From: a virus
Reading direction: 5' to 3' (one strand)
Length of the DNA stretch: 64,000 nt
Virus record (IMG/VR): IMGVR_UViG_3300020000_000010
Span: 33,601-97,600 of that record
Shown: positions 5,879-63,525 of the stretch, in pieces
Layout of the letters: every line of letters starts with the position of its first letter
Position numbering within the stretch: position 1 is the first letter of the stretch
Position numbers and translations under genes: made by a program
The notes under the pieces: generated by a model
The model's input: the letters and a program-made list of their open reading frames with translations, nothing else
The model's database searches: none
What the model was told of the DNA's origin: nothing

Positions 5879-7366
5879 CTAAATAATTTTCTTCAATCTT
5901 TCTCTAATTTCACTTAAAGAAGTTTGGTTATAAAATTTACCATCTTCAAAGATTGTTTGTAACAATCCCCCAGATTCTTCTTCTTGAGTACATTCTTGTT
6001 TTACATAGATCTGTTTTTTATCTTCAGATATATTAACCGCTAGTAATCCTTTTAACGATTTCTTAGTACCATCATCTGTTATAGGATCTTTATAAATATT
6101 AATTCCTTTACCATTATTTTCAAACCAAGCCCCTTTAGCCGCAAAACCAAAAGTATCTCTAGTATTATATTGATAAGTAAAAGAACCTACTCCTAATACA
6201 ATATTAGTAGCAGCAAAACCTTTAGTTGCTAATCTTTCATAGATTTGTACTTGTCTTTCTGTAGTAATAGAATCACCATAGATAGCTCCAATATGTGGAT
6301 CAAGAACTTTATATCCTTGCTCATTTACAGTTCCACCAAAAATATCCCAAAGAAGTTCTATTACTCCTTTAACTTCAGAGGTTCTTGGATTATCTAAATT
6401 ATGTGGAGAATCTGTACCACAAATAATATCTACAGGATCTCCAGAATCAGGTCTGATTACCAATTTACCATCTCTGGCTAAGATAAGTTTCTTAACTTTA
6501 GGATCAGCAATATACTCAGTAAGCAATTTCCATAGATCAAAAGTATCTGCTACAATTGAAAGAATTCCTTTTGGAAATTCTATTAACCAATCAATAATCA
6601 TTTGCTTTTCTCCAACTGTAAAAATTTTAGTTGTAGAAACAGAATGTTCAGAAGCATTTACTGAGTAAATACAAACTTTATCTTTTGGTTCATTATAAAA
6701 ATATCTTGCTCCTGGAATAACAATTAAAGTATCAGATCCACTATGGCTTGTAGCATGACCTAAACCACTAGATAACATATCCCAAGGAGATAGTCCTCTA
6801 GCAGAAAAATCATGGCACATATAATCAACTAACCAAAGATTAGCAGGATCTGTTTTCATTACCCACTCTATAGCATTTCTTTTATATTTTAAAGCTATAG
6901 TGGCAGAAGTACTTGGTTTCCATGCTAAACTACTAATTATTGTTTCAAGATATAAAGTTAACCATGCAAATCCATCAACGGTATTAATGAAAGTCATATG
7001 AGGAATATTAGGATCTGTTTCAATACCTTCAGGAAGAGCCTTAATTCTTATTGGCAAATATCCTAATGAATGTAAAGTATCAAAGTGTTTAGCATCATAA
7101 TCCATCATAAGATACATACTCATATCTTTTCCAAATTGTTGAGCTTCTTCTAAAGGTAATTTAAAGAAATTTTCTTCAAATTCATCCTTTAACCATATCA
7201 TAGTAAGTTGCTGACCACAAGAAACTATTTTAGTTACTCCTTTTGGAGCATATTTAGTACTTCTTGGAATCCAACTACCATATAGTTTAGTAGTTCCAGG
7301 AGCTAACATTTTTTTATGGCCCACTTTGTAACCATCAGTATAAAAAAGAGTGTTTGGTTTAAACAT
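5879..7366 (-). CDS. nadV: Nicotinamide phosphoribosyltransferase (NAMPT/NadV)
   Basis: Makes nicotinamide mononucleotide from nicotinamide and PRPP, the first step of NAD+ salvage. At 495 residues it is the usual family length. Family motifs run in order: TDGYKVGHKK near the N-terminus, IPRSTKYAPKG, SARGLSPWDM, the GSDTLIVIPGARYF block, RPDSGDP, YGDSITTERQ and a Gly-rich GVGSFTYQYNTRDTFG. The RPDSGDP and GDS elements form the phosphoribosyl pocket. It is the last gene of a minus-strand run that also holds a PRPP synthetase (7813-8703), so substrate and enzyme are co-encoded, as in the NadV/Prs pairs of T4-like phages such as KVP40. In phages this pathway can refill NAD+ drained by NAD-consuming defences. 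No adenylyltransferase (NadM/NadR) is seen, so the host must finish NAD+. Confidence 0.95.
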   Translation of the reverse strand: MFKPNTLFYTDGYKVGHKKMLAPGTTKLYGSWIPRSTKYAPKGVTKIVSCGQQLTMIWLKDEFEENFFKLPLEEAQQFGKDMSMYLMMDYDAKHFDTLHSLGYLPIRIKALPEGIETDPNIPHMTFINTVDGFAWLTLYLETIISSLAWKPSTSATIALKYKRNAIEWVMKTDPANLWLVDYMCHDFSARGLSPWDMLSSGLGHATSHSGSDTLIVIPGARYFYNEPKDKVCIYSVNASEHSVSTTKIFTVGEKQMIIDWLIEFPKGILSIVADTFDLWKLLTEYIADPKVKKLILARDGKLVIRPDSGDPVDIICGTDSPHNLDNPRTSEVKGVIELLWDIFGGTVNEQGYKVLDPHIGAIYGDSITTERQVQIYERLATKGFAATNIVLGVGSFTYQYNTRDTFGFAAKGAWFENNGKGINIYKDPITDDGTKKSLKGLLAVNISEDKKQIYVKQECTQEEESGGLLQTIFEDGKFYNQTSLSEIRERLKKII

Positions 7367-22764: not shown

Positions 22765-24051
22765 TTAGGTTACTAAATCTTCTTTTACCTTAATAAAGCT
22801 AATTCCAGCTTCTGTTTGATGTTTATATTCAATAATAGCATCCCTATCAAAGAAACCAAAAGGAACAAGTTCCATTCTATTTTTTTTACATCTAGCAGAT
22901 TTCTTTTCTATTTTCTTTAGAAAGCTTTTAGTAGGATTAGGTATTTCTGTTACCATTCTCTTATATTCAGAAAATTTTCTAGCATAAGTTTCCTTAGCAA
23001 AAATATCAAAGTTAGTCCTAATATCATATTCAGATAATAAGATTAAATCAACATTTTCTTTAATTTTCTTAACATAGATCTCAAACCTAGTTTTAAAACT
23101 CATAACCTCTACAATATCTCCCTTTTTAAACTTATTAAAGGCTATATTAGTCACTAAAAGTATTTGGTTATAGTTATACTCAGTAATTGCTATTTTTAAT
23201 GGTAGAGCTACAGAATTCTCTTTTTTATTAAAGAATCTTCCTAAAGCATTTTTCATCCCATCTAATAATCCTTTACCTTCTTCTTCATCTTCAGAATCAT
23301 CTTCTATTTCATTATTTGGTAAAATAAGATTAGAATTATTAGTTTCTTCTTTTTTAGCTTTATGCTCTTCCTCTTTAGGAACTATTGGATTAAAAGTAGA
23401 TAATACAACCTTATCTTCAACTCCTCCTACATTCCTTATAGAAGAATTACAATATCCTTTATTAGAAAAGAAATATCCAGAATCTTCAATAAATCCTTGA
23501 GAACAAACTAAACCTTTATCTGGAAATAGAATAACAATCTTATTCCATCCTAAAAATCCTATATTATCAAATACCATATCAAACTCTTCAGTATCCTCTT
23601 TAAAGAACTCTAAAAGATGTTTATTATTCATAAATTCATGAACAAAATGATAAGTATCTGAATATACTGAATTTTTATAAGCATATTCTCCAAATATTCC
23701 ATTATGAGCTAAAGTAGGTTTACTTACCCAGCCTTCTAATGTTAATATCTCATCTTGCTTAGTAGAAATAACAAAAGGATGGCAATTTAAATCATCTGTT
23801 TTACCACTAGTTCCTATTCTCATATGAACCATTAATTCATCATCTAATTGTAAATCAGCCTCTTCTAAAGAATTTAATAGATTTTTAATACTAAAATATC
23901 CTTTAGATATAAAAACTTCTTTATCATTTCCTGCTTTTTTATAGGAATATCCCATTCCTTGTGTATTACTAATAGCACCAGATCTAATAGAATCTATAAA
24001 AAACTTACTATATTTTTCTGTTCCCTTAGGAGCAACACATATTAAACACAT
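22765..24051 (-). CDS. Class II glutamine amidotransferase (Ntn-type)
   Basis: 428 residues starting MCLICVAPKG, so removal of Met exposes the catalytic Cys as in PurF/GlmS/AsnB. Other elements are VHMRIGTSG (Arg of the glutamine pocket), NCHPFVIS, THNG-like LAHNGIFGEY and DTYHFVHEF. After the 200-residue Ntn domain comes an acidic linker (NNEIEDDSEDEEEG) and a C-terminal beta domain (NKFKKGDIVEVMSFKTRFEI). It would release ammonia from glutamine for a partner ligase. It overlaps the amidoligase gene by 10 bp, which points to that enzyme as partner. Confidence 0.85.
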   Translation of the reverse strand: MCLICVAPKGTEKYSKFFIDSIRSGAISNTQGMGYSYKKAGNDKEVFISKGYFSIKNLLNSLEEADLQLDDELMVHMRIGTSGKTDDLNCHPFVISTKQDEILTLEGWVSKPTLAHNGIFGEYAYKNSVYSDTYHFVHEFMNNKHLLEFFKEDTEEFDMVFDNIGFLGWNKIVILFPDKGLVCSQGFIEDSGYFFSNKGYCNSSIRNVGGVEDKVVLSTFNPIVPKEEEHKAKKEETNNSNLILPNNEIEDDSEDEEEGKGLLDGMKNALGRFFNKKENSVALPLKIAITEYNYNQILLVTNIAFNKFKKGDIVEVMSFKTRFEIYVKKIKENVDLILLSEYDIRTNFDIFAKETYARKFSEYKRMVTEIPNPTKSFLKKIEKKSARCKKNRMELVPFGFFDRDAIIEYKHQTEAGISFIKVKEDLVT

Positions 24052-25493
24052 AATATTTCTTTTACTGTTAATTGTTTTATACTTGATAATTTTTGTTTAC
24101 CATATTCTTTAGCTTCTTCTTTCTGAGCCTCTAAAGAAGTAAATAGTTCCTTTCTTTTTTCAAAGTATTCAATTAGTTTATGTGTTCTTTCATTATCTCC
24201 AAAACAACATTCTAAAATTAAAGGAATAGTAATCTTTTGTATACCTTTTTCAGATTCAAAATATTCATTTTCTATCTCTTTTTGATAGTTTTCAACAAAT
24301 GATACAAAGGCTATACAAAATAATAACCAATTTTTAACTTTAACAAAGTTTGTAGTACCAGAATGGCATCTAAACTCTAAAGTATATGATTCATTTTCTC
24401 TAGTGTTAAATAAACATGGTATAAAATTTAACCAAGCATATCTAATATTAGAATGATCATAACCTACTTTAGCTCCTTTAGGATGATTAGTCTTTTTATT
24501 TAACTTATCATCAGGATTATATTTACATGCTTTTTTAAATATTTCATTGTAAATATCTGATAACCAGATATTATACTCTATTTTATTAGTTGTTTTACCT
24601 AAATACTTCTTTTCATATAAATTAGGTAACATCTGGCAATAGGTTGATCTAGACCTACTTGGAGGTAAATATTGAAATAAATCCTTTTGAATAGCCAATC
24701 CTAGTTTATAGGCAAAGACTATAAAAGTCTTATTAAAATCTATATTTCCTAGATGAATATGAATACTCGTTTTCTTGTCTACAGTACATCTTTTTGATAG
24801 TTCCATACATATCTTCTGAAGATGTAATAAACCATTATTACCTGAAAGAATTCCAGTAATATATTCTCCTGAAATAGGATCTCCTCCGCCTTCAGGTCTC
24901 AAAGATCCATCATATTCACAAGATATATTTAAATCATTCTCTAGGTATTCTGGAATATATCCAGAAGCTGTTTCTAGCTCTACTCCAAAAGTATACTTTT
25001 TATTTCCTGTTAATAGAAAATTATTATTTTTCTCAGGAAGGTTTGGATATGTATTATTAAAAGTTCTATATTTAGCAGATCCAGCATAATAGTTTGAAAT
25101 ATATTTTAAATACTCTTCCTCAAGAGGTATAGGATAGAAAAATCCCCATTTTAAATCCTCTCTAATATTTTCATCTTTAAAAACATCTCTAGAAATATAA
25201 GCAAAACTATTATTTCCAATATATAATAAAGGATACTTTTTAGCCTTACTACTATAAAACTCATCAAGAATCTTAATAGCGTTTTTTTCTAAAGTATAAG
25301 AATGTACTATAGGATTTAATTTATATTTTTTTGTTAATACTCCTGTTTCAACATCTAGAACTTCTGTATCATCTAAACCTTTATAAAGGGCTTTTTCATT
25401 CATTTCTTTCTTATTAAATATTTTTAAAAAATAATTGAAAAACTTAAATATCAACATGTTCTTCTTGTTGAGAAGCTTCTGTAATAATTTCAT
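24042..25493 (-). CDS. Amidoligase_2-family ligase (glutamine-synthetase-like fold)
   Basis: 483 residues. The family signature begins KYTFGVELETASGYIPEYL, then CEYDGSLRPEGGGDPISGEY, ITGILSGNNGLLHL, and SIHIHLGNIDFNKT, with YAWLNFIPC and YTLEFRCHSGT further on. The Glu and His residues of ELE, DGSL and HIHLG form the ATP/metal site. The fold forms amide bonds between carboxyl and amino groups. The start is ambiguous: Met13 or Met31 would avoid the Phe/Lys-rich leader and the overlap with the previous gene. It is flanked on both sides by class II amidotransferases. Confidence 0.85.
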   Translation of the reverse strand: MKLLQKLLNKKNMLIFKFFNYFLKIFNKKEMNEKALYKGLDDTEVLDVETGVLTKKYKLNPIVHSYTLEKNAIKILDEFYSSKAKKYPLLYIGNNSFAYISRDVFKDENIREDLKWGFFYPIPLEEEYLKYISNYYAGSAKYRTFNNTYPNLPEKNNNFLLTGNKKYTFGVELETASGYIPEYLENDLNISCEYDGSLRPEGGGDPISGEYITGILSGNNGLLHLQKICMELSKRCTVDKKTSIHIHLGNIDFNKTFIVFAYKLGLAIQKDLFQYLPPSRSRSTYCQMLPNLYEKKYLGKTTNKIEYNIWLSDIYNEIFKKACKYNPDDKLNKKTNHPKGAKVGYDHSNIRYAWLNFIPCLFNTRENESYTLEFRCHSGTTNFVKVKNWLLFCIAFVSFVENYQKEIENEYFESEKGIQKITIPLILECCFGDNERTHKLIEYFEKRKELFTSLEAQKEEAKEYGKQKLSSIKQLTVKEILCV

Positions 25494-27054
25494 TAAATTC
25501 TAGTTTAATAGTATCTCTTAAAGCCTCTATTCCTTCTTTAACCATTAGAATTTCAGCAGAACTCATAATATAGTTTTCTGTTCCTATCTTTGAGGATTCT
25601 ATAACCTTAAGAATATTATCTAAACTAATAATAGCAGCTTCTTCAACTTCTTTTACTTTTTCCACATTTATTTTTTTTGTTTTATTATTCTTTTTTTTTT
25701 CTATCTTTTCTAGATAATCTTTTATTTCATCTTTAGAAGCAGGTCTTAGATAAGTATCATTAACAACAACACTTCTTCCTGTTAATTCATTTCTAATATC
25801 TCTTCTATTATCATGATTATGAACCATGATTTTACAAATATCTCCTTTATTTACAGCAGGTTTATCCTTATCTTCACCATCAACATATACTAGACTACTT
25901 GTTACAAACACATATATAATATCATTAAGATTATACATTTCATTATAATAAAACCAGAAGGGATTTACTTTAACTCTATCTAATTTCTCATCAATAATAT
26001 AGACTTCTTCTAAATTTTTATCATTATTAAGTTTAGCTACTCCAGTACAGAAATACCAGTTATCTCTTATTAAAGAAATATCTTGTCCTCCAGCTCTAGT
26101 AGTTGTTGCTTGACACTTTAACCATCTATTAACTACTTCTTTTCCTCTATAAGTATATTGTAGATTAAAAGTTTTTATAGGAGTAGAAATAATAGGTTTC
26201 TGTTCTACAAAAGAGTTATTATTATGATTTTCTCCTTGTAGTTCTTCTAACCATTCATCATAATGATTATTTCTATTTCTCCAATTATTATTAGTATTAG
26301 TTTTTGGTAAAATTCCAGGAAAAGGCTTTTTAGCTATTTTAAACTGGTTTTTTACTTTACCATTCTTAATAATATATAAATAGTCTTCTTTAAACTCTAT
26401 AATATTCTTACAGTTTATTGATTTTAAAGATTTCTCTATAGAAGAAATATACATTCCTTCGTCTCCTATACCTCTATATAAAGGTCTTTCTTTGTTTCTA
26501 TATACATAAAGAGTATCGGGAGTATTTGTATCTGTAAAAATTAATGCTGCTGCTCCTTCAAATTTACTTAAACAGTATAAATTCTGTTCTTTATTTAAAG
26601 ATGCTGCTAGTATCATACTATCTACATCATAATCTCTACTAGATAAACCTAGGTTGCCACAAAGTATCCAGGGATTATCTAAAGTTCCATTATGTGCTAA
26701 AACAATATTACCATATTGAAAAGGATGAGCATTATTAAGGCTATTAACACCATAAGTTGCTTGTCTAACATGTCCTATTAATACACTATCTTGTTGTATT
26801 TCATTATAGAAGTCTGAAGTAATATATTCGCTAGATTTCTTTAATGATTTCTTTATTCCTGTTTTAGGAGTATAAATGCCTGTAGCATCTTTACCTCTTT
26901 CTTCATTCCAGAATAATAATTGAGCTATTTTACTTTTATCAAAGAGATAATCTATAGCTGAAAACCCAACTAGACCACAGCCTAATTGGGATTGAAGTTT
27001 TTTAGATCCAAAGATAAATTGAATAAAATAACTTATTGTTATTAATAATAACAT
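25444..27054 (-). CDS. Second class II glutamine amidotransferase, with N-terminal hydrophobic extension
   Basis: 536 residues. The Ntn domain begins CGLVGFSAIDYLF at residue 25, with ERGKDATGIY, IGHVRQATYG, NAHPF, LAHNGTLDN and DVDSMILAAS: all glutaminase elements. The catalytic Cys is not at position 2. It follows a 24-residue hydrophobic leader (MLLLITISYFIQFIFGSKKL), and no start codon lies next to the Cys, so cleavage after Gly24 or a propeptide is needed for activity. The C-terminal 250 residues hold a linker (ENHNNNSFVEQK) and beta-rich domain of unknown role. Confidence 0.8.
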   Translation of the reverse strand: MLLLITISYFIQFIFGSKKLQSQLGCGLVGFSAIDYLFDKSKIAQLLFWNEERGKDATGIYTPKTGIKKSLKKSSEYITSDFYNEIQQDSVLIGHVRQATYGVNSLNNAHPFQYGNIVLAHNGTLDNPWILCGNLGLSSRDYDVDSMILAASLNKEQNLYCLSKFEGAAALIFTDTNTPDTLYVYRNKERPLYRGIGDEGMYISSIEKSLKSINCKNIIEFKEDYLYIIKNGKVKNQFKIAKKPFPGILPKTNTNNNWRNRNNHYDEWLEELQGENHNNNSFVEQKPIISTPIKTFNLQYTYRGKEVVNRWLKCQATTTRAGGQDISLIRDNWYFCTGVAKLNNDKNLEEVYIIDEKLDRVKVNPFWFYYNEMYNLNDIIYVFVTSSLVYVDGEDKDKPAVNKGDICKIMVHNHDNRRDIRNELTGRSVVVNDTYLRPASKDEIKDYLEKIEKKKNNKTKKINVEKVKEVEEAAIISLDNILKVIESSKIGTENYIMSSAEILMVKEGIEALRDTIKLEFNEIITEASQQEEHVDI

Positions 27055-35001: not shown

Positions 35002-35220
35002 TTATTTATATCCTTCTATTATATGATTACAATATTTACATTGTTTTATCCTTATAATAGATATTTTCTTTTTAGTAAACCAATGTAATCCTAGCTTACA
35101 AGTAATATATTGTTGCCAGTTATCTGTATTAAATTTCAGACAAATAAATTCTTTAATCCAAAGGAATATCAATAAACTACTCAATATTCCTACTAAAATA
35201 AATTTATATGATTGTTCCAT
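35002..35220 (-). CDS. Small membrane protein with Cys-pair domain
   Basis: 72 residues. One membrane helix (FILVGILSSLLIFLWIKEF) followed by a small domain ending IKQCKYCNHIIEGYK, with a CxxC zinc-knuckle-like end. The leader contains AACCTTAAAC before the ATG, a variant of the repeated early-gene motif. Confidence 0.5.
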   Translation of the reverse strand: MEQSYKFILVGILSSLLIFLWIKEFICLKFNTDNWQQYITCKLGLHWFTKKKISIIRIKQCKYCNHIIEGYK

Positions 35221-35359: not shown

Positions 35360-35635
35360 TTAAAAGTTATTTGGATATTCTTTTTTTAAAATATTAAAAG
35401 AGGAAATAAAGAAATTAATTAAACTCCAGAGAAATATTGTAATAATCATTGTAAAATACCAATAATGTCTTACACCCCAATCCCAAGATCTGTCTATACC
35501 CATATTATTTATAGGATCTACTAATTTATCTCCAAAAAAGTTTCTTAAATGTTCTGGTAAATAAGAACCAAAAATTCCTATTCCAAATAAAAGCAATATT
35601 CTTAATATTACTCCAAAATATACTTTATTTTTCAT
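35360..35635 (-). CDS. Membrane protein
   Basis: 91 residues, two hydrophobic helices (LRILLLFGIGIFGSYLPEHL; YWYFTMIITIFLWSLINFFI) with a polar loop between. Two-helix layout with a large loop; no family recognised. It overlaps the lipoprotein gene by 4 bp. Confidence 0.5.
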   Translation of the reverse strand: MKNKVYFGVILRILLLFGIGIFGSYLPEHLRNFFGDKLVDPINNMGIDRSWDWGVRHYWYFTMIITIFLWSLINFFISSFNILKKEYPNNF

Positions 35636-35847
35636 TTCTCTAATATTTTAAAGTTTTTAATTTCACAGGCATACTCTCCTTCATAATTATAAGGAGAGTA
35701 TATACAGCCTTTATGTAATACTATATCACAGGGAATATAACATATAGTATCTTTCTCTCCAGAATAGTATTCTACTTCTACATTAAGAAGTTTGGGAGAA
35801 CAAGAAAATATACTAAATATTGATAGTATTAATATTAATTGTTTCAT
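35632..35847 (-). CDS. Small lipoprotein
   Basis: 71 residues. The signal MKQLILILSIFSIFSCSPK has a lipobox-like FSC, so Cys16 would be lipidated. The mature part is short and Cys-rich (ICYIPCDIVLHKGC). Phage lipoproteins in the outer membrane or periplasm can block superinfection; that is conjecture. Confidence 0.6.
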   Translation of the reverse strand: MKQLILILSIFSIFSCSPKLLNVEVEYYSGEKDTICYIPCDIVLHKGCIYSPYNYEGEYACEIKNFKILEK

Positions 35848-36445: not shown

Positions 36446-36679
36446 TTAGTATCCATATCCATATCCATATCCATTTCCATTTCCATTTCCATTTCCATTT
36501 CCATATCCATTTCCATTTCCATATCCATATCCATATCCATTTCCATATCCATATCCATTTCCATTTCCATTTCCATTTCCATTTCCATATCCATTTCCAT
36601 TTCCATTTCCATATCCATTTCCATTTCCTATATGGTGGCTATCTTCAAAATTTTCGGCAATTTTTAAATTCCTGACCAT
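36446..36679 (-). CDS. Gly-Asn / Gly-Tyr dipeptide-repeat protein
   Basis: 77 residues. A leader MVRNLKIAENFEDSHHIG is followed by about 30 dipeptides, each Gly-Asn or Gly-Tyr, encoded by GGA plus AAT or TAT. I chose the ATG at 36679 because GGAGG lies 6-10 bases upstream, one of the clearest Shine-Dalgarno sequences in the window; a longer frame starts at 36721. Such Gly/Tyr/Asn repeats resemble low-complexity phase-separating or silk-like segments. The function is unknown. The repeat could vary in number by replication slippage. Confidence 0.6.
   Translation of the reverse strand: MVRNLKIAENFEDSHHIGNGNGYGNGNGNGYGNGNGNGNGNGYGYGNGYGYGYGNGNGYGNGNGNGNGNGYGYGYGY
36449..36630 (-). repeat. Hexanucleotide tandem array
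   Basis: About 30 copies of a six-base unit (GGANAT type on the minus strand, the fourth base A or T), making up most of the dipeptide-repeat gene. Units with A and T occur in irregular runs, so the array is not a single clonal duplication. Confidence 0.9.
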
Positions 36680-37227: not shown

Positions 37228-37599
37228 TTATAAATATCTTTTTATATAGCTTGCGATATAATTAAAGGATTTTCCTTTATCATTAAGTCTTGATAATTTA
37301 TCATTAATAGTTTGAGATATATCATCTAATCCTCTTAGTAAAGAAGGAAGTGCTTTTGAATCATTATTTTGTAAGTCTTGTGGTAATTCTCTATCATATA
37401 GTATACTTTTATTTATTTTTACAATAGCACAAGCAACTCCTAAACAACAATATTCTTCTTTACTATTATAATTACATAAAAGATAATCTTCTCCTTGTTT
37501 ATATTTTCCGCTTTTAAGAGCTTTTATCCATTTGTTTTTAAACATTTTAGGAAGCCTATAATCTTTTAATTTATTTGTTTTTGGATTTATTATTTTCAT
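37228..37599 (-). CDS. Conserved-type hypothetical protein
   Basis: 123 residues. WIKALKSGKYKQGEDYLLC, EEYCCLGVACAIVK, LNDKGKSFNYIASYIKRYL: the WxxALxSGxYxQ...YCCLGV...LND.GxSFxxIAxxI arrangement is widespread in phage and bacterial proteins of unknown role. Confidence 0.65.
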   Translation of the reverse strand: MKIINPKTNKLKDYRLPKMFKNKWIKALKSGKYKQGEDYLLCNYNSKEEYCCLGVACAIVKINKSILYDRELPQDLQNNDSKALPSLLRGLDDISQTINDKLSRLNDKGKSFNYIASYIKRYL

Positions 37600-38702
37600 T
37601 TGATTAATATTATTATCCCTTCATATACATGTTGAATATTCTGTAAACTCTTCAACTTAAGTCTATAAGTATAAATACTTTGTTGATCATTATATCCAGA
37701 CCATAATTCATCTCTGTTTTGAGTATGGAATATAACTTGCCCTGCTCTATTAAATACCTCTAACTCATATTCTTTAATACCAAATATAATAGGTAAGAAA
37801 TAATCATTTAAAGCATCTCCATTAGGTGTAAATGCATTAGGTATATAAAGATATATACATTGGCACTCAGAAGGAGCAGATTCAATATTTATAGGTTCTA
37901 TTACAAATACTTTAACTATATTATTACAAGACTCTTTACCATTAGTATAAGTTACTGTATATTGATTATCTCTGGTAGGTGCTACAGTTATATAATAGTT
38001 TGATTTTGAGGGATTTGTGTTCCAAGAATATTTATATCCCGGAATATCTAGTACTAAAGAAATATCATCTATTCCCCAAGTATCAAATCCTACACCATCA
38101 GAATCTTTTTGAATCCATCTAATCTTAGTATGATTAGTTAATGCTTCTTCTGGAATATCTATACAATATTTATTCCAATTGGTTAATATACTATCCATAC
38201 CTCCTTTAGGATCATAGTATTCTATTGTGTTCCAAGAAGTTGTAAAGTATTCTAAGTAAATTCCTTCTGTATTCTTTTCTATACCTTCACAAGGATCATG
38301 AGGATCTCCATTAGCTTTTTGTAATCCATACTTCATTCTAAAGCATAAAGTAGCTTTTGTAGCACCATTCTTTGTTAAATCTAAAGGTTTTGATTCTATG
38401 TATCTAGGATTATCAATACTATTGTTCATAAATAGATAATGTTTCCCTTCAGGACTTAATCCAAAACAAGGATAATTAGAAGTATCAGCTATAGTAGCAT
38501 TAGAGCTAGTTTCTAGTAAAGGATCTATAATACCATTATTAAAATTAATGAATAAAGGTTTTATAGTATCCTTATAAGCAGATAATAACACAGAATCTCC
38601 ACAATATATTGTAATAGAGCTATCTTTTACATGAACTGGACATTGTGTATATCCAGATAGAAAAGATAGCTGTAATAGAAGAATTAATATGTATTTTTTC
38701 AT
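37596..38702 (-). CDS. Secreted protein with type IX secretion (CHU_C, type B) sorting domain
   Basis: 368 residues. An N-terminal signal peptide (KKYILILLLQLSFLSGYTQC) is followed by a central beta-sandwich region (PCFGLSPEGKHYLFMN, TKATLCFRMKYG, GIDDISLVL) resembling reeler/MAM-like lectin domains. Then comes a C-terminal domain of the gliding-mot/CHU_C type: YIPNAFTPNGDALNDYFLPI, EVFNRAGQVIFHTQ, TYRLKLKSLQNIQHVYEG. In Bacteroidota this domain directs proteins through the type IX secretion system to the cell surface. I read this as a phage-made surface or secreted protein, perhaps blocking other phages or binding neighbours. It has no promoter-like TAnnTTTG upstream; its start is in the early-style cluster. 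Confidence 0.88.
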   Translation of the reverse strand: MKKYILILLLQLSFLSGYTQCPVHVKDSSITIYCGDSVLLSAYKDTIKPLFINFNNGIIDPLLETSSNATIADTSNYPCFGLSPEGKHYLFMNNSIDNPRYIESKPLDLTKNGATKATLCFRMKYGLQKANGDPHDPCEGIEKNTEGIYLEYFTTSWNTIEYYDPKGGMDSILTNWNKYCIDIPEEALTNHTKIRWIQKDSDGVGFDTWGIDDISLVLDIPGYKYSWNTNPSKSNYYITVAPTRDNQYTVTYTNGKESCNNIVKVFVIEPINIESAPSECQCIYLYIPNAFTPNGDALNDYFLPIIFGIKEYELEVFNRAGQVIFHTQNRDELWSGYNDQQSIYTYRLKLKSLQNIQHVYEGIIILIK

Positions 38703-43581: not shown

Positions 43582-43914
43582 TTAAGTTTTAAGTTTAAAT
43601 ACAACTATTAAGACTAATATCAAAGATATAAATATAGTTACACAATTAAGAATTATTAATACCAAAGATAAATCTTTTGAAGAATTATCCATATTATTAA
43701 CAACTGTTTCTTTAGTATCTATATAATATATGTTGTTTTTATCATTCTCTTTAGCTTGATTTAAGGTACATTGATTAGAAGTATCTCTTTGGTGTAAAGT
43801 ATCTTGATAAGTGATATTTGGAGGTTTTTCTTGGTATTTCTGACAACTAGTTAATCCTGATAATATAGACAATATTAACATAATTAAAAAGAAGAATTTT
43901 ATAGGGTTTTTCAT
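43582..43914 (-). CDS. Lipoprotein with C-terminal membrane helix (u-spanin-like layout)
   Basis: 110 residues. The signal LIMLILSILSGLTSCQKYQ has a good lipobox (LTSC), giving an acylated outer-membrane Cys. A soluble stretch follows, then a C-terminal membrane helix (LSLVLIILNCVTIFISLILV). A lipidated N-terminus plus an inner-membrane C-terminal helix is the layout of unimolecular spanins, which fuse the two membranes at lysis. Its place among small early-style genes is unusual for a lysis gene, so a periplasm-spanning defence or modification role is an alternative. Confidence 0.5.
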   Translation of the reverse strand: MKNPIKFFFLIMLILSILSGLTSCQKYQEKPPNITYQDTLHQRDTSNQCTLNQAKENDKNNIYYIDTKETVVNNMDNSSKDLSLVLIILNCVTIFISLILVLIVVFKLKT

Positions 43915-55362: not shown

Positions 55363-55879
55363 TTTTGATATAGATTCTAATTTCTGGAAAAATAATCCAC
55401 AATTGATTATTCCTAAGGAATTAAACAAACTATATAAAGAAGATAAATCTAAAGATAAAACAAATAGCTCCCAGATAATGTGGGCTATTTGTTTATTTCT
55501 TGATCTTTCTGAAGAAAATAAGTTTAGAAATTTTCCAGAAGAAGATAGAAAGAAACTAATTATAGAAGATTATCTACAAGATCCTAAGTTTAAGTTTGAG
55601 AATTATAAACCAATAATAGATTGGTATATAGAAGGATTATATAGTCCTGCTCAAAGAGGAATATTAAACTGGAGAAGGAAGCTAGAAGAGAGAGATCTAT
55701 TTATAGCAGATACTCCTTATGAATTAGAAACAGCAGAAAAATTAGATAAAGTATTAGCTTCAACAGATAAACTTTATTCTCAGTTAGAAAGACTAGAAAA
55801 GCAATACCAAAAAGAGAATCTTGAAGGTAAAGATAAAGGAGGAGCTACAGCTTCTCTTAGTGATAAAGGTCTTATCTAA
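55346..55879 (+). CDS. Small terminase subunit-like protein
   Basis: 177 residues preceding the large terminase. Helical, charged (DLSEENKFRNFPEEDRKKLI ... YSQLERLEKQYQKENLEGKD). Size and position fit the crAss-like small terminase, but sequence alone is weak. Overlaps the HNH gene by 17 bp and TerL by one base. Confidence 0.55.
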   Translation: MSLLTNFDIDSNFWKNNPQLIIPKELNKLYKEDKSKDKTNSSQIMWAICLFLDLSEENKFRNFPEEDRKKLIIEDYLQDPKFKFENYKPIIDWYIEGLYSPAQRGILNWRRKLEERDLFIADTPYELETAEKLDKVLASTDKLYSQLERLEKQYQKENLEGKDKGGATASLSDKGLI

Positions 55880-58083
55880 TGTATATAAATAACGAAAACT
55901 TTATAATTAAAGAAATACCAAGATTCATTCCAGAATCCTCTAAACATATAGAATGGTGGAGAGATGAAAAAAGGAAATGTATTGAAGGTACTTGGGTTTC
56001 AGGGAAATATATGCCCGGAGTTACATTCTTTTATGTAAATTTTTGGTATATTAAATTAAAAAAGTCTGAATTTTCTAAGAATGAGATTACTTCTAGACCT
56101 ATGTTAAGAGATCTAGAATGGGAGAAAGGGTATTTATATATAGAAGCTAGAGGTTTTAGTGGATTTTCTTTAGATAAAGAATATACATGTAATGATTTTT
56201 ATAAACCAGAAGTTAGAGAAGTTAATGAAGGACTAGAGATAATTCCTAAAAACAATCTAATTTATGTACATCCTAGAGAATATCTAAGGAAGATTCATAA
56301 AACAAATTTAGGAAAACCTATATATGAAAATGAAGCTAAGAATATAGTTGATATAGAAAGCAGAGGAGGAGGAAAATCATATTTTGCAGCAGCAGTAGCA
56401 GGACATAATTTCTTATTTGATGGTGCCACAGATTATGATGATTATATAAAGGCTAAACAAAATAAAACATTATATTCTTCAGAAACTCTTATAGCCGCAA
56501 TTGATACTAAATATACTAGTCCTTTAATTAATAAATTTTGGTTAGGTATATCAGAACTTCCTGGAAAACAGGAATATAATGGTAGGAAGTTTGCTTCTCC
56601 TTTATATTTAGAACATAAGGGTTCTTTATCTAAATCAAATGATTATATAGAAGCTATTAGAGAGGTTAAATATGGTAATAATTGGGTAGAGGAAGGAAGT
56701 AGATCAAAGGTTCATCATAGAAGCTTTAGAGATAATCCACAGGCAGGAAATGGTATTAGACCAAATCTTATATTTCTAGAAGAAGTTGGATTTATGGGAA
56801 ATCTAGAAGATGCTTTAGGTTCTTTAAGAGATTGTACTATGAATGGTACTTTTAAGTTTGGAACTATATGGATGTTTGGCACAGGAGGAGACATGGAAGG
56901 TGGTAGTACTCAAGCAGTTAAGAATGTTTTTTATAATCCAGAAGAAAATGATTGTTTAGTATTTGAAGATGAATATGAGAATAAAGGGAAGATAGGATAT
57001 TTTGTTCCTGCACATATGACCTTTAATGATTGTAAAGACTCTGAGGGAATAACAGATAAAGAAAAAGCTAAGAAAAAAATAAAAAGACAAAGAGATAAGG
57101 TTAAAGATAGTCCTAAAGCTTTTATTAAAGAACTAGAAAATAAACCTGAAAAACCTTCTGAGGCTTTCTTAACTTCAGATAGTAATATGTTTCCTGTTAG
57201 AGACTGTGAAGATAGATTGGCAGAGTTAGAAACTACTAAATCTATATTAGATGGAACCTGGCAAGGAAGATTAACAATAGATGAAGAGGGAAATGTTAAA
57301 TATAAATTATCAGAAGATAGGGTTATATTTGATTTCCCATTAAAAGATAAATTAAACACAAAAGGAGCTGTTCATATATTTGAACATCCTTATGATGAAG
57401 GAGGAAGACCTCCTAAAGGTCTATATTTGGCAGGATTTGACACAATAGATGATGATGGAATATCAGGATCTCTAATGAGTATTTGGGTTGCCAATACTTT
57501 AACTAATAGAATAGTAGCAGAATATACAGGCAGACATAATCTTGCAGAAGAAGGGTTTGAAATAGTGAGAAGGCTTATTTTATATTATAATGCTGAATGT
57601 AACTATGAGAATCAGAAAAAGGGATTCTATGCATATATGGATAAGAAGAATTGTAATCATATGTTAGCAGATACTCCAAAAATCCTAAAAGATGTAGATA
57701 ATTTAACAATACATGATACTGGAAATAATAAATCTAAAGGAACTAATGCTACAGAAAAGATTAATATATATGCTAGAAGTTGTTTTAAACATTGGTTATT
57801 AAAGAATGCTTATACAACAACAGGAGATGCTGATTATAATAATATTAAAACTATAAAATCTCCAGCTCTTTTAAAAGAGATTATTAACTGGAATCCTAAA
57901 GGAAATTTTGATAGAATTTCTGGCATAGGAATGCTCATGATTCTTATGGAAGATAAATATAAGATTTCTGTAGGAAGATCTTTTGAAGAAGAGGAAGAAG
58001 AAAAAGACGGATATTTTGAAAGACATTGGAACCAAAACAGCTATATAGATCATAAATTTCCAACCTATAATAATGAAAATTAA
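55879..58083 (+). CDS. terL: Large terminase subunit
   Basis: 734 residues. ATPase: Walker A DIESRGGGKSYFAAAVAG (about residue 158) and Walker B-like PNLIFLEEVGFMGN (about residue 297). Nuclease: AGFDTIDDDGISGS and a later YMDKKNCNH-like Asp cluster. It translocates genome DNA into the head through the portal. The long N-terminal region (about 150 residues) is typical of crAss-like enzymes. Complete, no frameshift. Confidence 0.9.
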   Translation: MYINNENFIIKEIPRFIPESSKHIEWWRDEKRKCIEGTWVSGKYMPGVTFFYVNFWYIKLKKSEFSKNEITSRPMLRDLEWEKGYLYIEARGFSGFSLDKEYTCNDFYKPEVREVNEGLEIIPKNNLIYVHPREYLRKIHKTNLGKPIYENEAKNIVDIESRGGGKSYFAAAVAGHNFLFDGATDYDDYIKAKQNKTLYSSETLIAAIDTKYTSPLINKFWLGISELPGKQEYNGRKFASPLYLEHKGSLSKSNDYIEAIREVKYGNNWVEEGSRSKVHHRSFRDNPQAGNGIRPNLIFLEEVGFMGNLEDALGSLRDCTMNGTFKFGTIWMFGTGGDMEGGSTQAVKNVFYNPEENDCLVFEDEYENKGKIGYFVPAHMTFNDCKDSEGITDKEKAKKKIKRQRDKVKDSPKAFIKELENKPEKPSEAFLTSDSNMFPVRDCEDRLAELETTKSILDGTWQGRLTIDEEGNVKYKLSEDRVIFDFPLKDKLNTKGAVHIFEHPYDEGGRPPKGLYLAGFDTIDDDGISGSLMSIWVANTLTNRIVAEYTGRHNLAEEGFEIVRRLILYYNAECNYENQKKGFYAYMDKKNCNHMLADTPKILKDVDNLTIHDTGNNKSKGTNATEKINIYARSCFKHWLLKNAYTTTGDADYNNIKTIKSPALLKEIINWNPKGNFDRISGIGMLMILMEDKYKISVGRSFEEEEEEKDGYFERHWNQNSYIDHKFPTYNNEN

Positions 58084-58106
58084 CCAAAAATACAATATTT
58101 TATACC

Positions 58107-58114
58107 TAACTTTG
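58107..58114 (+). promoter_or_regulatory. Possible promoter -7 element before portal
   Basis: TAACTTTG matches the TAnnTTTG element, but the -33 TTTG is missing 20 bases upstream. A weak host-type or secondary promoter for the portal and capsid genes. Confidence 0.45.
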
Positions 58115-58133
58115 TATTTTCCAATAATATAAA

Positions 58134-60656
58134 ATGAGTAGTCCTATAAGTTTGAAGGTAATGCCTTCACAAAAGAAAGCAGATTCAGAAAAAATAGCAG
58201 ATGATTATAAGTGGGGAAAAGACTGTATAGATGGAGCAGAAGGTATGATCCTTCTACAAAATGATTTTATAAGAGCTTCTAGATATAGAAAACAAGTAAA
58301 TTATGATCTATATAATGGTAAGTTACATCCTACAGATATAGAGAGGATTATGAATCCTATGGGATTAAAGAATGTAACTTTTCCAGCACAACTTCAGAAT
58401 CATCCTATTACTAATCCTTATATAAAATGTTTAGTAGGAGATGAGATAGGTAGAAGATTTGATTGGAATCTAAAGGTTACTAATGATGATGCTATATCTG
58501 AAAAGGAGAAAGAGAAATCAGAAGTAGCAAATGAAGAACTAAAATCTATATTATTACAAGGTTTAGAACAACCTCAAGATCCTAATAACCAACAGGCTAA
58601 CCAACAATATGAACAAGAAGTTCAACAAAGGTTAGATCAACTTAATAAAAAGGTAAATCAAAATTATCAAGATAAAAGAGAAATAGCAGGTACTCATTTA
58701 CTTAATCATTACCAAAGAGTTTGTAATATTAAAAATATAAGAACTAGAGGTTGGGAAGATGCTTTATTAGTAGGAGAAGAAATCTATTGTGTAGATATTA
58801 TTAATAATGAACCTATAGTAAGAAAGTGTAATCCATCTAATACCTATTATTTGATTGCTCCTGATAGTTATATGATTGAGGATGCAGATATGATAGTTGA
58901 AGAATATTATGTACCTGTAGCAAGAGTTATTGATGATTATTATGATTATTTAACCCCTAAAGATATAGACTATTTAGAATCTAAAACAAGATATAAAGGA
59001 CAGGCTTCTTATGGTAATTTAGTTAACTATGAATTACAAGATCCTATTTTTGCTATTCCTTTGGGTGCTACCCAGGGGATTGATATTAATACTCTTAATA
59101 CAGGAGCTACGGGATTAACTCCTTTTGATACTCAAGCAAATGTAAGAGTTTTAAAAGCTGTTTGGAGAAGTCTTAGAAAGATTGGTATTCTAACTTATAT
59201 AGATGATAATGGAGAATCACAAGAGAAGAATGTACATGAAGATTATGTAGTACAGAAAGAACTAGGAGAATCTATTAGATATGTATGGATAGGGGAATGG
59301 TGGGAAGGTACTAAAATAGCTAATGAAATCTATATAAAGATTCAGCCAAGACCTGTACAATTTAGAAAACTTAATAATATATCTATATGTGCTTCAGGTT
59401 ATACTGGTACATTATATAAAACAAATGCTAGTCAGGTTCAATCATTATTTGATTTAATGAAGCCTTATCAGTATAAATATAATGTTTATTATCACAGGTT
59501 AGAGAAACTTATGATTAATAATATAGGTAAGGTTGCTAAATTAGATCTAGCTAAAGTTCCTGATGGATGGCAAGTAGATAAATGGCTTTACTATGCTAAA
59601 GAGATGAATATAGCAGTAGTAGATTCTTTTAAGGAAGCTAAAAAGGGAGCAGCTACTGGTAAGTTAGCAGGTAATATGGCAGATAATTCTAATGTTATAG
59701 ACTTATCCTTAGGTACTGAGATTCAACAACATATACATGCTATTGAATATATAAAGTCTGAATTAGATCTTATAACAGGTATTACTCCTCAAAGAAGAGG
59801 ACAGATAAAAACTGCTGATCAAGGATTAGGAGTTACTAATCAAGCAATTGCTTCTTCTTCAACTATTACAGAGTGGTATTTTAAATTACATGATGAAACA
59901 GGATTAAGATTAATGTCTACTGTATTAGAAACAGCAAAATACTGTATGAGAAATGGTAATAAGAATATCCAATATATTACTGATGATATGGACTCTGTGA
60001 TCTATAATTTAGATGGAGAACTTATTAATGAGGCAGAGTATGGATTAACTATGGTAGATAGTACTCAAGATGCTAAAGCTAGACAGAGTTTACAAGCAGC
60101 TTCAGAATTAGCTATTCAAACAGGACAGATAGATCTTATTCAGATGATGGATATTAACTCTAATCAAAGTTATTCTGCTATTAGAAGGAAGATAGAGAAG
60201 TCTATTATGGATAAGCAAGCACAGTTAGAACAAGCAAGAAAAGAAGAGAATCAGATTAAGCAGCAAGAATTAGCAGATAAGAAAGAACTAGAACAACAAA
60301 AGTTGGAACTTGCTAGATATAAGATAGATACAGAAGCTGGTGTAGATTTGAGAAAAGCTGAATTAAGTGCTTTATCTTTTGATGAGGGAGTAGATACTCC
60401 TGAAATAGTAAATACTGCTGAACATGCACTTAATGAAAGAGAATTAATGATTAAACAGTATGATATAGATAAAGCACATAAGATAGAACATCTAAAGATA
60501 GATTCTAATGAAAATATAAAAGAGAAAGAAAGACTAATAAAAGAAAAGGAATTAAAGTTTAAAGAGAAAGAATTAAAAGTAAAAAAAGAGATTGAAGAAC
60601 TTAAAGCACGCACGTCTTTAAAAAATAAAGTCTCAGGCGAGGGTAAAAAGAAGTAA
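58134..60656 (+). CDS. Portal protein
   Basis: 840 residues. The N-terminal half has the usual portal fold features (NPYIKCLVGDEIGRRFDWNL; YIKIQPRPVQFRKLNNISIC; QRRGQIKTADQGLGVTNQAI). A long Glu/Lys coiled-coil tail (about residues 690-835) ends the protein, as in crAss-like portals. It forms the DNA entry ring bound by TerL. Confidence 0.85.
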   Translation: MSSPISLKVMPSQKKADSEKIADDYKWGKDCIDGAEGMILLQNDFIRASRYRKQVNYDLYNGKLHPTDIERIMNPMGLKNVTFPAQLQNHPITNPYIKCLVGDEIGRRFDWNLKVTNDDAISEKEKEKSEVANEELKSILLQGLEQPQDPNNQQANQQYEQEVQQRLDQLNKKVNQNYQDKREIAGTHLLNHYQRVCNIKNIRTRGWEDALLVGEEIYCVDIINNEPIVRKCNPSNTYYLIAPDSYMIEDADMIVEEYYVPVARVIDDYYDYLTPKDIDYLESKTRYKGQASYGNLVNYELQDPIFAIPLGATQGIDINTLNTGATGLTPFDTQANVRVLKAVWRSLRKIGILTYIDDNGESQEKNVHEDYVVQKELGESIRYVWIGEWWEGTKIANEIYIKIQPRPVQFRKLNNISICASGYTGTLYKTNASQVQSLFDLMKPYQYKYNVYYHRLEKLMINNIGKVAKLDLAKVPDGWQVDKWLYYAKEMNIAVVDSFKEAKKGAATGKLAGNMADNSNVIDLSLGTEIQQHIHAIEYIKSELDLITGITPQRRGQIKTADQGLGVTNQAIASSSTITEWYFKLHDETGLRLMSTVLETAKYCMRNGNKNIQYITDDMDSVIYNLDGELINEAEYGLTMVDSTQDAKARQSLQAASELAIQTGQIDLIQMMDINSNQSYSAIRRKIEKSIMDKQAQLEQARKEENQIKQQELADKKELEQQKLELARYKIDTEAGVDLRKAELSALSFDEGVDTPEIVNTAEHALNERELMIKQYDIDKAHKIEHLKIDSNENIKEKERLIKEKELKFKEKELKVKKEIEELKARTSLKNKVSGEGKKK

Positions 60657-60777
60657 AAATATAATAATTTTTATTATATAAATTAAAATAAAAGCTATAA
60701 TAATCAAAACTAACCAGATACAAACTGCTTGATATTCAAAAAATTATTAAGAACTTTGTATCATAATTTAATAAATA

Positions 60778-62004
60778 ATGACCAATACTAACACAACAGA
60801 ATTATTTGCAGGATTAACAAATTTAGTATCTAATAATATGGAAACAGTTATTAATACTGAAGAGAATACAGAAAAAGAAGTGAGTTTTACTTTAGAAGAA
60901 CTAGAGACTAAAATGAAACCTTTAGAAGATACTACTGAAAAAACAGAGATTGATTTAATAAAAGAAGCAAAAGCTAAAGGAACCAAAGTAGATCCTAAGA
61001 TTGAAAAAACACCTGAAGAAATTGCTGCTGAAACAGAAAATGTTGAAGACAAAGAAGATACTACAGGAACAGAAACTGATGATACTAAATTAGAGGTTTA
61101 TAGTTCTTTATCCGCTTTACTTAGAGAAGAAGGAGTACTAGATAAAGATTTTACCTCAATGGATGAAATGTTTACTTTATTCTCAGAAAAGGTAACAGCA
61201 GAAGCTAATGAACTATTAAATGAAGAATTAGAATCTAGGCCAGAAGAACTTCAAGAACTTATTAAAAACTATAAAGAAGGTGTTCCTTTTGATGAATTAC
61301 TTAAAACAAAGTCTAATCAAATGAGATATTCTAATATAGAACTATCTAAGATAGAAGAAGATGAAGACCTTCAAAAAGAACTAGTTACAGAATATTTAAA
61401 GAAAACTACTAAGTTTTCAGAAGATAAGATTAAAAAAGAAGTTAAAAGACTCTCAGACCTCGGAGAATTATCTGATGAGGCTAAGGGTGCTAAAACAGAA
61501 TTGGTTGCATTAGAGAAAGAATTTGAGGCTAATTTAAAGAAAGAAACTAAGGTTAGACAAGAGACTGAAAGAAAAGAAAATGAAAAGATAGTTAAAGAGA
61601 TTCATAAACAAGTAGCTTCTGTTAGGGAAGTAATTCCTGGAATTAAAGTTACAGAGAAAGAATCTAATGAACTATTTAAAATGATTACAACTCCTGTAGA
61701 AATCAGAGGAAATCAACCAGTTTCTTATGCTATGCAAGTTAGGGAACAAGATCCTATTAAGTTTGATCTTACTTTAAATTATTTGATTAAGCAAGGAGCT
61801 TTTGAAGGAAAATGGGATTTTGTTAGTAAGAAAGCAACTACTAAGGCTGTTTCTAATCTAGAAAAGCAAGTAGAAGAAGCAGCTGCTAAGTTAATTAATA
61901 AGGGGGGTAAACCTGCTGATATTCAAGATAATGATAAATCAAAAAGAACAATAAGTGGTTTAGAATCAGCAATGACTAAACTAAAGAAAGAAAGAATGCA
62001 ATAA
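60778..62004 (+). CDS. Scaffolding / head protein, acidic coiled coil
   Basis: 408 residues, highly acidic and helical (FTLEELETKMKPLEDTTEKT; EFEANLKKETKVRQETERKE), no catalytic motif. Position between portal and capsid is that of the crAss-like scaffold. A TTG ... GAACTTTG near-promoter lies at 60729-60758. Function inferred from position and composition. Confidence 0.7.
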   Translation: MTNTNTTELFAGLTNLVSNNMETVINTEENTEKEVSFTLEELETKMKPLEDTTEKTEIDLIKEAKAKGTKVDPKIEKTPEEIAAETENVEDKEDTTGTETDDTKLEVYSSLSALLREEGVLDKDFTSMDEMFTLFSEKVTAEANELLNEELESRPEELQELIKNYKEGVPFDELLKTKSNQMRYSNIELSKIEEDEDLQKELVTEYLKKTTKFSEDKIKKEVKRLSDLGELSDEAKGAKTELVALEKEFEANLKKETKVRQETERKENEKIVKEIHKQVASVREVIPGIKVTEKESNELFKMITTPVEIRGNQPVSYAMQVREQDPIKFDLTLNYLIKQGAFEGKWDFVSKKATTKAVSNLEKQVEEAAAKLINKGGKPADIQDNDKSKRTISGLESAMTKLKKERMQ

Positions 62005-62040
62005 TAAGAGTACAATTAACCTTTAAATATAAATAAAAAC

Positions 62041-63525
62041 ATGAGTTACGGTAAAATTTCACCACTACAAAAATTTGAGCCTAAAGATTGGTCAGGCTTA
62101 ACCACAGAGAACCACTTAGGAGCTATGTGGGGACAACAGCCAATTCTCATCAATGATACTATAGAGAATATCTTTGATGTTAACGTAGGTTTAGACCTAG
62201 ATAGGTTTATGGATCAATTCCCTACATTTGAAATCAATGATGATCTACCTTTTGAATGGTTGCTTAATACACAATCTCCATTTAAGAGTCTTCCTCTAAT
62301 TAATTACTACGATAGTACTTTATCTAGTCAACCAGCACAAGCGGGTATTGGGCTAAGTGATTTCTGGTTAGAATTTCCAGATAAGATCTTTGCTGAGATT
62401 GATGTAATTGCTCCAGCAAGTTATGATAAAGAGATTTATCAATTGAAAATTAAAGAATGGAGACCAAATGGTTCTAACCATCTTTATAGAGTTTCTTTTA
62501 TTGCAGGAGATCATAACCTATTTATGCCAGCAGCTAGTTTAGCAGGTGGTACTAGATTTGTTAAAATGTTTGCTCCAGTAGAACAAACTTTATCACAAAG
62601 AGGATCTGACAGTATTGTACATTCTTCTCCTTTTAGGATGCAGAATCGTTGTTCTATGATTAGAGCAGAATACAAAGTACCTGGAAATATGATTGATAAG
62701 AAGGAAAATGCTCCTCTTGGATTCTATTTTGTAGATGCTTCGGGAAATAAACATACTACTTGGTTATCTAAATTAGACTATGATTTCATGGTTCAGTTTA
62801 AACGTCAGAAAGCAATGTTAGGTCTTTATGCTAAAAACAATAAGACTTCACAAGGAACTTATGATGTTAAAGGAGAATCAGGATATGAAGTAAAAATGGG
62901 TTCAGGAGTTTATGAACAAATTTCTCCTTCAAATGTCCATTACTATTCTAGTTTTAATATTGATGTTGTATCAGATATTCTATTAACCTTATCTGTTGGT
63001 AAATTACCAGAAGATAAACGTAGATTTGTACTTGGTACAGGAGAATATGGAATGAGAGCTTTCCACAGAGCAGTAGAAACTAAATCTGTAACTTATGGCC
63101 CTAACAGGACTGAAAGTAGGATTGGTGGAAAAGGCTTTGAAATGTCTTATGGAGGTCAGTTCAAGAAATATTCATTTATTAATGGTATTGAAATTGAACT
63201 AATGTATATTCCTTTCTTGGATGATCCAAGTTTGTGTTCTGTACAACATCCTGATGGAGGTTTATTAAGTTCATATGAATATTTAATTTTAGATTTTGGT
63301 ACTCAACAAGGAAGACCTAATATTCAAAAAGTTTCTGTAAAAGGACAACAAGAAGGTATGAGATATATTCCTGGTTTAAGAGATCCTTTTACTCCTAATA
63401 ACCCTGTTAAGCCTTCAATGACTGTTTCTAAAGTAGATGGTTATGAGATTATGAAGTGGTATATTGGTGGTGTAAAAATCCATAATCCAATGAGAATTGC
63501 ACGATTGATTCCTAATATTTCATAA
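62041..63525 (+). CDS. Major capsid protein
   Basis: 494 residues, well expressed codon use (more C/G-ending codons). The start MSYGKISPLQKFEPKDWSGL and LPFEWLLNTQSPFKSLPLIN, together with VQHPDGGLLSSYEYLI, fit the crAss-like HK97-fold capsid family. It is followed by a good terminator. Self-assembles into the icosahedral shell around the scaffold. Confidence 0.88.
   Translation: MSYGKISPLQKFEPKDWSGLTTENHLGAMWGQQPILINDTIENIFDVNVGLDLDRFMDQFPTFEINDDLPFEWLLNTQSPFKSLPLINYYDSTLSSQPAQAGIGLSDFWLEFPDKIFAEIDVIAPASYDKEIYQLKIKEWRPNGSNHLYRVSFIAGDHNLFMPAASLAGGTRFVKMFAPVEQTLSQRGSDSIVHSSPFRMQNRCSMIRAEYKVPGNMIDKKENAPLGFYFVDASGNKHTTWLSKLDYDFMVQFKRQKAMLGLYAKNNKTSQGTYDVKGESGYEVKMGSGVYEQISPSNVHYYSSFNIDVVSDILLTLSVGKLPEDKRRFVLGTGEYGMRAFHRAVETKSVTYGPNRTESRIGGKGFEMSYGGQFKKYSFINGIEIELMYIPFLDDPSLCSVQHPDGGLLSSYEYLILDFGTQQGRPNIQKVSVKGQQEGMRYIPGLRDPFTPNNPVKPSMTVSKVDGYEIMKWYIGGVKIHNPMRIARLIPNIS

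Follow-up and report, generated by a model that had tools for sequence, protein, structure and literature searches.

The 64,000-base window analysed here, which corresponds to bases 33601-97600 of a 97,600-base IMG/VR virus record, carries a gene for a 368-aa protein that combines a predicted signal peptide, a reelin-type domain and a C-terminal sorting domain of the type B used in type IX secretion (T9SS). Our best explanation is that the phage captured this accessory gene from a Bacteroidota T9SS cargo gene and then adapted it, and that the product would be exported by the host's T9SS and would remodel the host surface; taken as a whole, we give this account slightly better than an even chance. 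Export through the host T9SS, taken separately, is very probable judging from the protein's sequence. It is the route proposed in the original prediction, and on established T9SS biology it remains the predicted one in a Bacteroidota host. The gene and the parts of its product are arranged as follows.

37596..38702, minus strand: cargo gene, whose stop codon occupies 37596-37598; its 368-aa product is the reelin-domain protein that has the type B T9SS sorting domain (open reading frame, domains, codon usage)
38643..38702, minus strand: predicted Sec signal peptide, residues 1-20, MKKYILILLLQLSFLSGYTQ (hydropathy, inspection, alignment with the signal peptides of bacterial homologues)
38058..38447, minus strand: Reelin subrepeat-B domain, PF21471, residues 86-215 (Pfam, solved-structure profile, Foldseek)
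37872..38039, minus strand: short Ig-like stretch, residues 222-277 (alignments; kept in bacterial homologues)
37599..37850, minus strand: CHU_C or type B T9SS sorting domain, residues 285-368 (PF13585, TIGR04131, structural model, profile match to GhpA)

The reading frame is intact and opens with ATG, and the N-terminus, followed by a cysteine at residue 21, has by inspection, hydropathy and alignment with homologues the look of a typical Bacteroidota Sec signal peptide, as originally claimed. At the other end, PF13585 (CHU_C) matches residues 287-364 of 368 with 48.5 bits against a cut-off of 27 (E 1e-12), and the type B model TIGR04131 gives 33.2 bits (E 4e-8), narrowly below its cut-off of 35; we therefore assign the sorting domain to PF13585 and describe it as type B-like with respect to TIGR04131. 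Both motifs quoted in support of a type B domain can be located (IPNAFTPNGDALND in residues 287-300, FNRAGQ in residues 317-322), and the conserved residues of the sorting domain hold in the homologues. The PNAFTPNGD block and the C-terminal strand are kept, with RWG changed to RAG and WDG to WSG. Between the two ends, PF21471 scores 47.6 bits (cut-off 27), and the Ig-like stretch matched no Pfam domain. The earlier description of the protein as lectin-like can thus be sharpened to a reelin-subrepeat jelly-roll domain, as reelin comes first both in a profile search of solved structures (E 1e-31) and in Foldseek (E 2e-8, with a low whole-chain TM-score of 0.38), where phage tail fibres are numerous among the weak-scoring matches. 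The AlphaFold model has a mean pLDDT of 76, and its sorting domain is well modelled (about 74-95). Taken together, the domain matches are far beyond chance. No catalytic domain was found in the 368 residues, and Pfam detected no SprB repeats (PF13573), which are present in the two bacterial relatives scanned; the protein may act somewhat like a short adhesin, yet we do not file it as SprB-type.

That the gene belongs to a phage, as had been supposed, is well founded. Each of TerL, portal and major head protein has a PHROGs match, with E values of 1e-82 to 1e-127, and the closest TerL among deposited phages is that of Cellulophaga phage phi14:2 (36% identity over 94%), followed by other crAss-like phages. 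The order of the genes in the late block is also that of phi14:2. This block and the gene immediately downstream of the cargo gene are placed as follows.

55879..63525, plus strand: late block with TerL, portal, an unnamed ORF and the major capsid protein (PHROGs, TerL identity, synteny)
37228..37599, minus strand: downstream phage gene of 123 aa, phrog_18067, of unknown function (ORF list, PHROGs)

The record, of about 97 kb, consists of two gene blocks in opposite directions. By the homology and order of TerL, portal and major capsid protein, together with the opposed blocks and this length, it is a Crassvirales-like phage; "Steigviridae-like" would be a statement about the direction of the best match only, rather than a phylogenetic placement in that family. 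The promoter motif of Bacteroidota, TANNTTTG, occurs 23 times in intergenic positions against 12 expected, and this roughly twofold excess weakly suggests a Bacteroidota host. The cargo gene lies in the leftward block, which is oriented against the capsid block and also contains the DNA polymerase, the replication genes and numerous small ORFs, and the end of the cargo gene overlaps the 123-aa gene by 4 bases; from its position it would be a gene of the early or middle class. The same leftward block holds, on the minus strand, two predicted small lipoproteins (35632-35847 and 43582-43914) and two small membrane proteins (35002-35220 and 35360-35635), and the envelope-directed ORFs of the record are mainly these four. 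Other features of the window include a 6-base tandem repeat at 36452-36628 (TCCATT on the plus strand, 29.5 copies, 93% match), which lies inside an ORF and encodes a Gly-Asn/Gly-Tyr dipeptide repeat; a NAPRTase-family protein at 5879-7366 on the minus strand (PF04095, E 1e-32, with a weak NAMPT N-terminal match), possibly an NAD salvage gene; adjoining amidoligase-like and class II glutamine-amidotransferase-like ORFs at 24042-27054 on the minus strand, which overlap by about 50 bases (PHROG); and, at 17-3013 on the plus strand, an ORF of 998 aa that contains a circularly permuted YpsA-like SLOG domain (PF12694, E 2e-10).

The relatives of the N-terminal domain are found in Bacteroidota, namely in Flavobacteriales, in Fluviicola and other Crocinitomicaceae, and in Sphingobacteriales. 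The closest relatives of the phage protein are large T9SS cargoes from this phylum, of 618-1740 aa where complete and, in several cut ones, of more than 2000 aa. The two bacterial relatives that were scanned over their full length have the domain order reelin, SprB repeats, CHU_C. In an alignment with the bacterial relatives, for which full-length rows were used, the phage protein has the signal peptide, the reelin domain with its cysteines and core residues conserved, the Ig-like stretch and the sorting domain, without any repeats. The phage copy thus corresponds to both ends of such an adhesin without the stalk. The GC3 of the gene (0.136, against a phage mean of 0.134) and its codon usage are ordinary for the phage, which argues for long residence there, and the intact ORF suggests that it is probably maintained by selection. 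No CHU_C-type gene was found in five complete crAss-like genomes or in 32 contigs with related terminases, many of which are fragments. Together with the phage-like codon usage, this absence points to a settled accessory gene within the crAss-like group. In the tree, the relative from the huge phage LR745206 clusters with a Flavobacteriales genome (100/98) and the window copy forms a long branch of uncertain place; as the two phage copies are not joined, they are likely to be separate captures.

A type B cargo is expected to need more than the translocon. According to PMC12618676, type B cargo of Flavobacterium johnsoniae requires a PorP/SprF-type shuttle, usually encoded by a neighbouring gene, with orphan cargoes sharing one, and mutation in any of five conserved motifs (A-E) of the SprB domain abolishes secretion. 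PorP-like proteins have also been reported to bind type B proteins and to hold type B cargo at the cell surface (PMC9143113), and the authors of that study speculate that PG1035 caps PorP. We found no such gene beside the cargo gene of the window, as the record has no match to PF11751 (PorP/SprF), nor was there a match in any of the 51 phage records searched (the window record and 50 others), in a search that was blank in its controls too. Repeated on 12 Bacteroidota genomes, all with relatives of the window protein, it matched in every one, in 5-28 copies each. Among the 30 best bacterial CHU_C domains, a set chosen by score and not at random, 26 are followed directly by a PF11751 gene. Thus, hosts of such a kind could supply the shuttle, and phage cargo would have to borrow it, given that none of the phage records searched had a match.

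Tagged proteins of this type appear to be fairly widespread among phages. An IMG/VR scan with the single protein gave no matches, because only strict peptide patterns were used, and a scan in which three aligned sorting domains from phages served as query found at least 72 further loci on 71 contigs, a lower bound for the same reason. Terminase_6N was matched in 24 of the 50 records tested, many on contigs of 100-635 kb; the shorter contigs without it are candidate phages, and a few may be host sequence. No other viral contig matched in a scan with the N-terminal domain, so that in phages this domain is known only from the window protein and from LR745206, a 634 kb huge phage that encodes a 1205-aa CHU_C protein with the same domain. 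Another huge phage, LR756502 (642 kb), encodes a 116-aa protein made up of a signal peptide and CHU_C. These two genomes have four and three CHU_C domains, respectively, on proteins of 116 to more than 1600 aa. A type A counterpart occurs on contig IMGVR_UViG_3300028388_001285 (913-1689), which has a phi14:2-like terminase: a GroEL-like gene is directly followed there by the gene of a 258-aa protein, which carries a signal peptide and a sorting domain of T9SS type A (TIGR04183, 23.8 bits, cut-off 23). That many unrelated phages have type B cargo, and that a crAss-like contig has type A cargo, speaks for a recurring benefit.

Some of these phage proteins are reduced to the two targeting signals. 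Nine loci encode miniproteins (107-116 aa) with nothing beyond a signal peptide and a type B domain, and two more do so from an internal start. Three of the contigs concerned have a strong terminase match, three of four miniproteins tested pass TIGR04131, one is modelled confidently (mean pLDDT 84), and a second scan with the miniproteins as query returned the same contigs. The Trp of the RWG motif is kept in about 58 of 72 viral and 16 of 17 bacterial domains, and it is absent from the window domain and from nearly all miniproteins. Since most miniproteins belong to one family, leaving about four independent cases, we treat this pattern as a lead and not as a finding. Domain-only ORFs in one bacterial genome were rejected, as they are the tails of frame-broken long genes.

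From the sequence of the protein, its domains, its phage context, its homology to T9SS cargoes and a record with no PorP/SprF match, we infer the timing, the export, the use of a shuttle and the benefit of the cargo. The protein would be made from the leftward block along with the replication genes and small ORFs, its signal peptide would route it through Sec, and its type B domain would be taken up by the T9SS translocon and a PorP/SprF-type shuttle of the host, the phage bringing none. The infected cell would then probably display or shed the protein, anchored on or released from its surface in the form of a short adhesin whose outermost part is the reelin domain. Most likely, the host surface would in this way be remodelled during infection, as the short protein would fill the shuttles and surface sites of long host adhesins, and surface structures bound by other phages would be masked or replaced, leading to superinfection exclusion. 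We favour exclusion as the benefit because the protein resembles a host adhesin without the stalk and would compete with such adhesins for both the shuttle and the place on the surface, and consider this role possible, at a little less than an even chance. Gliding mutants are linked to phage resistance, which we do not use as evidence.

Several observations speak for this explanation: both targeting signals are at the correct ends of the protein, the proteins most closely related to it are T9SS cargoes from Bacteroidota, about 600 to more than 2000 aa long, that share its N-terminal domain, and the gene is surrounded by small leftward-block ORFs, away from the capsid block and near the two predicted lipoproteins and two membrane proteins. 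The specificity of type B shuttles, which is fairly high, counts against it, as does the fact that no close relative of the gene is known from the other crAss-like phages covered (the five complete genomes and 32 contigs). The reported binding of type B proteins to PorP-like proteins at the cell surface (PMC9143113) is again in favour. The TIGR04131 score below the cut-off and the altered RWG and WDG motifs, read beside the F. johnsoniae motif mutants described in PMC12618676, indicate that the domain may be weak or changed in role.

In a rival reading, the protein would inhibit secretion, with an abundant exported type B domain sitting in the host PorP/SprF shuttles or translocon and blocking host adhesins and gliding proteins. 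Bare signal-peptide and type B miniproteins of 107-116 aa are encoded by several kinds of phages, the RWG Trp is missing from the window domain and nearly all of them but mostly kept elsewhere, and none of the phage records tested encodes the shuttle, all of which fits such an activity. Nevertheless, a pure inhibitor would not need the conserved reelin domain of the window protein, and the miniproteins, being mostly one family, reduce the Trp loss to about four independent cases, so we regard this reading as unlikely. There is also a wider form, an improbable one in our view, in which the type B proteins of Bacteroidota phages, from miniproteins to short adhesins, would be a class of type IX secretion inhibitors that jam or divert PorP/SprF.

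In another reading, the protein would be a secreted adhesin or public good that makes infected cells adhere to one another or to prey, particles or polysaccharide, to the advantage of phage spread or host nutrition and not as a barrier to other phages. The adhesion-type jelly-roll fold of the reelin domain, the SprB repeats of the bacterial relatives and the glycoside hydrolases among the type A cargoes of Cryophage (PMC7468147) are consistent with this, but no catalytic domain was found in the phage protein and a lytic cycle allows scant time for group benefits, which leaves this reading doubtful as well. Ig-like and jelly-roll domains are frequent in tail proteins, and together with the weak Foldseek matches to tail fibres they might suggest a tail or head decoration in which the sorting domain is a mere folding or binding module; a signal peptide, a gene in the block opposite the structural genes and bacterial homologues that are T9SS cargoes make such a virion component very improbable. 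Finally, a host-captured passenger without function, not yet lost, would account for the long tree branch and for the absence of the gene from the related contigs and complete genomes. Against this, the 368-codon frame is intact, the reelin cysteines and core residues are conserved, the codon usage is fully phage-adjusted, and unrelated phages repeatedly carry such genes; we hold it to be quite improbable. A captured cargo exported to the host surface is the reading that we prefer.

Phage-borne T9SS cargo is already known, contrary to the view that the trait was undescribed: it is published in PMC7468147 and PMC6949934, and BFVD contains phage proteins named "gliding motility-associated C-terminal domain". 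Cryophage encodes three type A T9SS cargoes, for which competition or superinfection exclusion was suggested (PMC7468147). They resemble the window protein in having a phage-encoded T9SS sorting domain, a presumed use of the host system and a suggested role in exclusion, but their sorting domains are of type A and are borne by an endoglucanase, a glycoside hydrolase and a PA14 protein, whereas the window protein is a reelin-domain protein with a type B domain, and the route known for type B depends on a shuttle of the PorP/SprF type rather than on PorV. The crAss-like BACON phages of cluster 2 also have proteins with T9SS sorting domains (PMC6949934). Their genes lie beside the head section and encode BACON domains, with the type of sorting domain not stated, in contrast to the window gene, which is in the replication-side block and has no BACON domain. 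The reelin-SprB-CHU_C adhesins of Bacteroidota share the signal peptide, the N-terminal domain and the sorting domain in the same order, and differ in their length (about 600 to more than 2000 aa) and in their SprB, PKD or other repeats, none of which occurs in the 368 residues of the phage protein. The 1205-aa protein of LR745206 is likewise phage-borne and matches in domain order at both ends, but it keeps a long repeat region and, as it groups with a different bacterial relative (100/98), is probably an independent capture. The sorting-domain profile also matches the C-terminus of the Aureispira grappling hook protein GhpA (E 3e-12), a 5898-aa bacterial predation protein with no common N-terminal domain detected. 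In the open-access literature we found no paper on phage type B cargo, on its lack of a shuttle or on the miniproteins. The type B version on a reelin-domain protein is therefore a new variant of a known trait.

If the protein is exported, a crAss-like phage uses the secretion apparatus of its host to rewrite that host's outer surface. Phages of Bacteroidota are abundant, and the ways in which they control the host surface and keep out competitors are little understood. If the proteins with type B domains did form a class of inhibitors, an infected cell would lose its own surface adhesins, its gliding and any receptors dependent on these. Because type B domains turn up repeatedly, in many phage contigs, without the shuttle on which bacterial cargo relies, it becomes testable which host shuttle is used and at what cost to the host.
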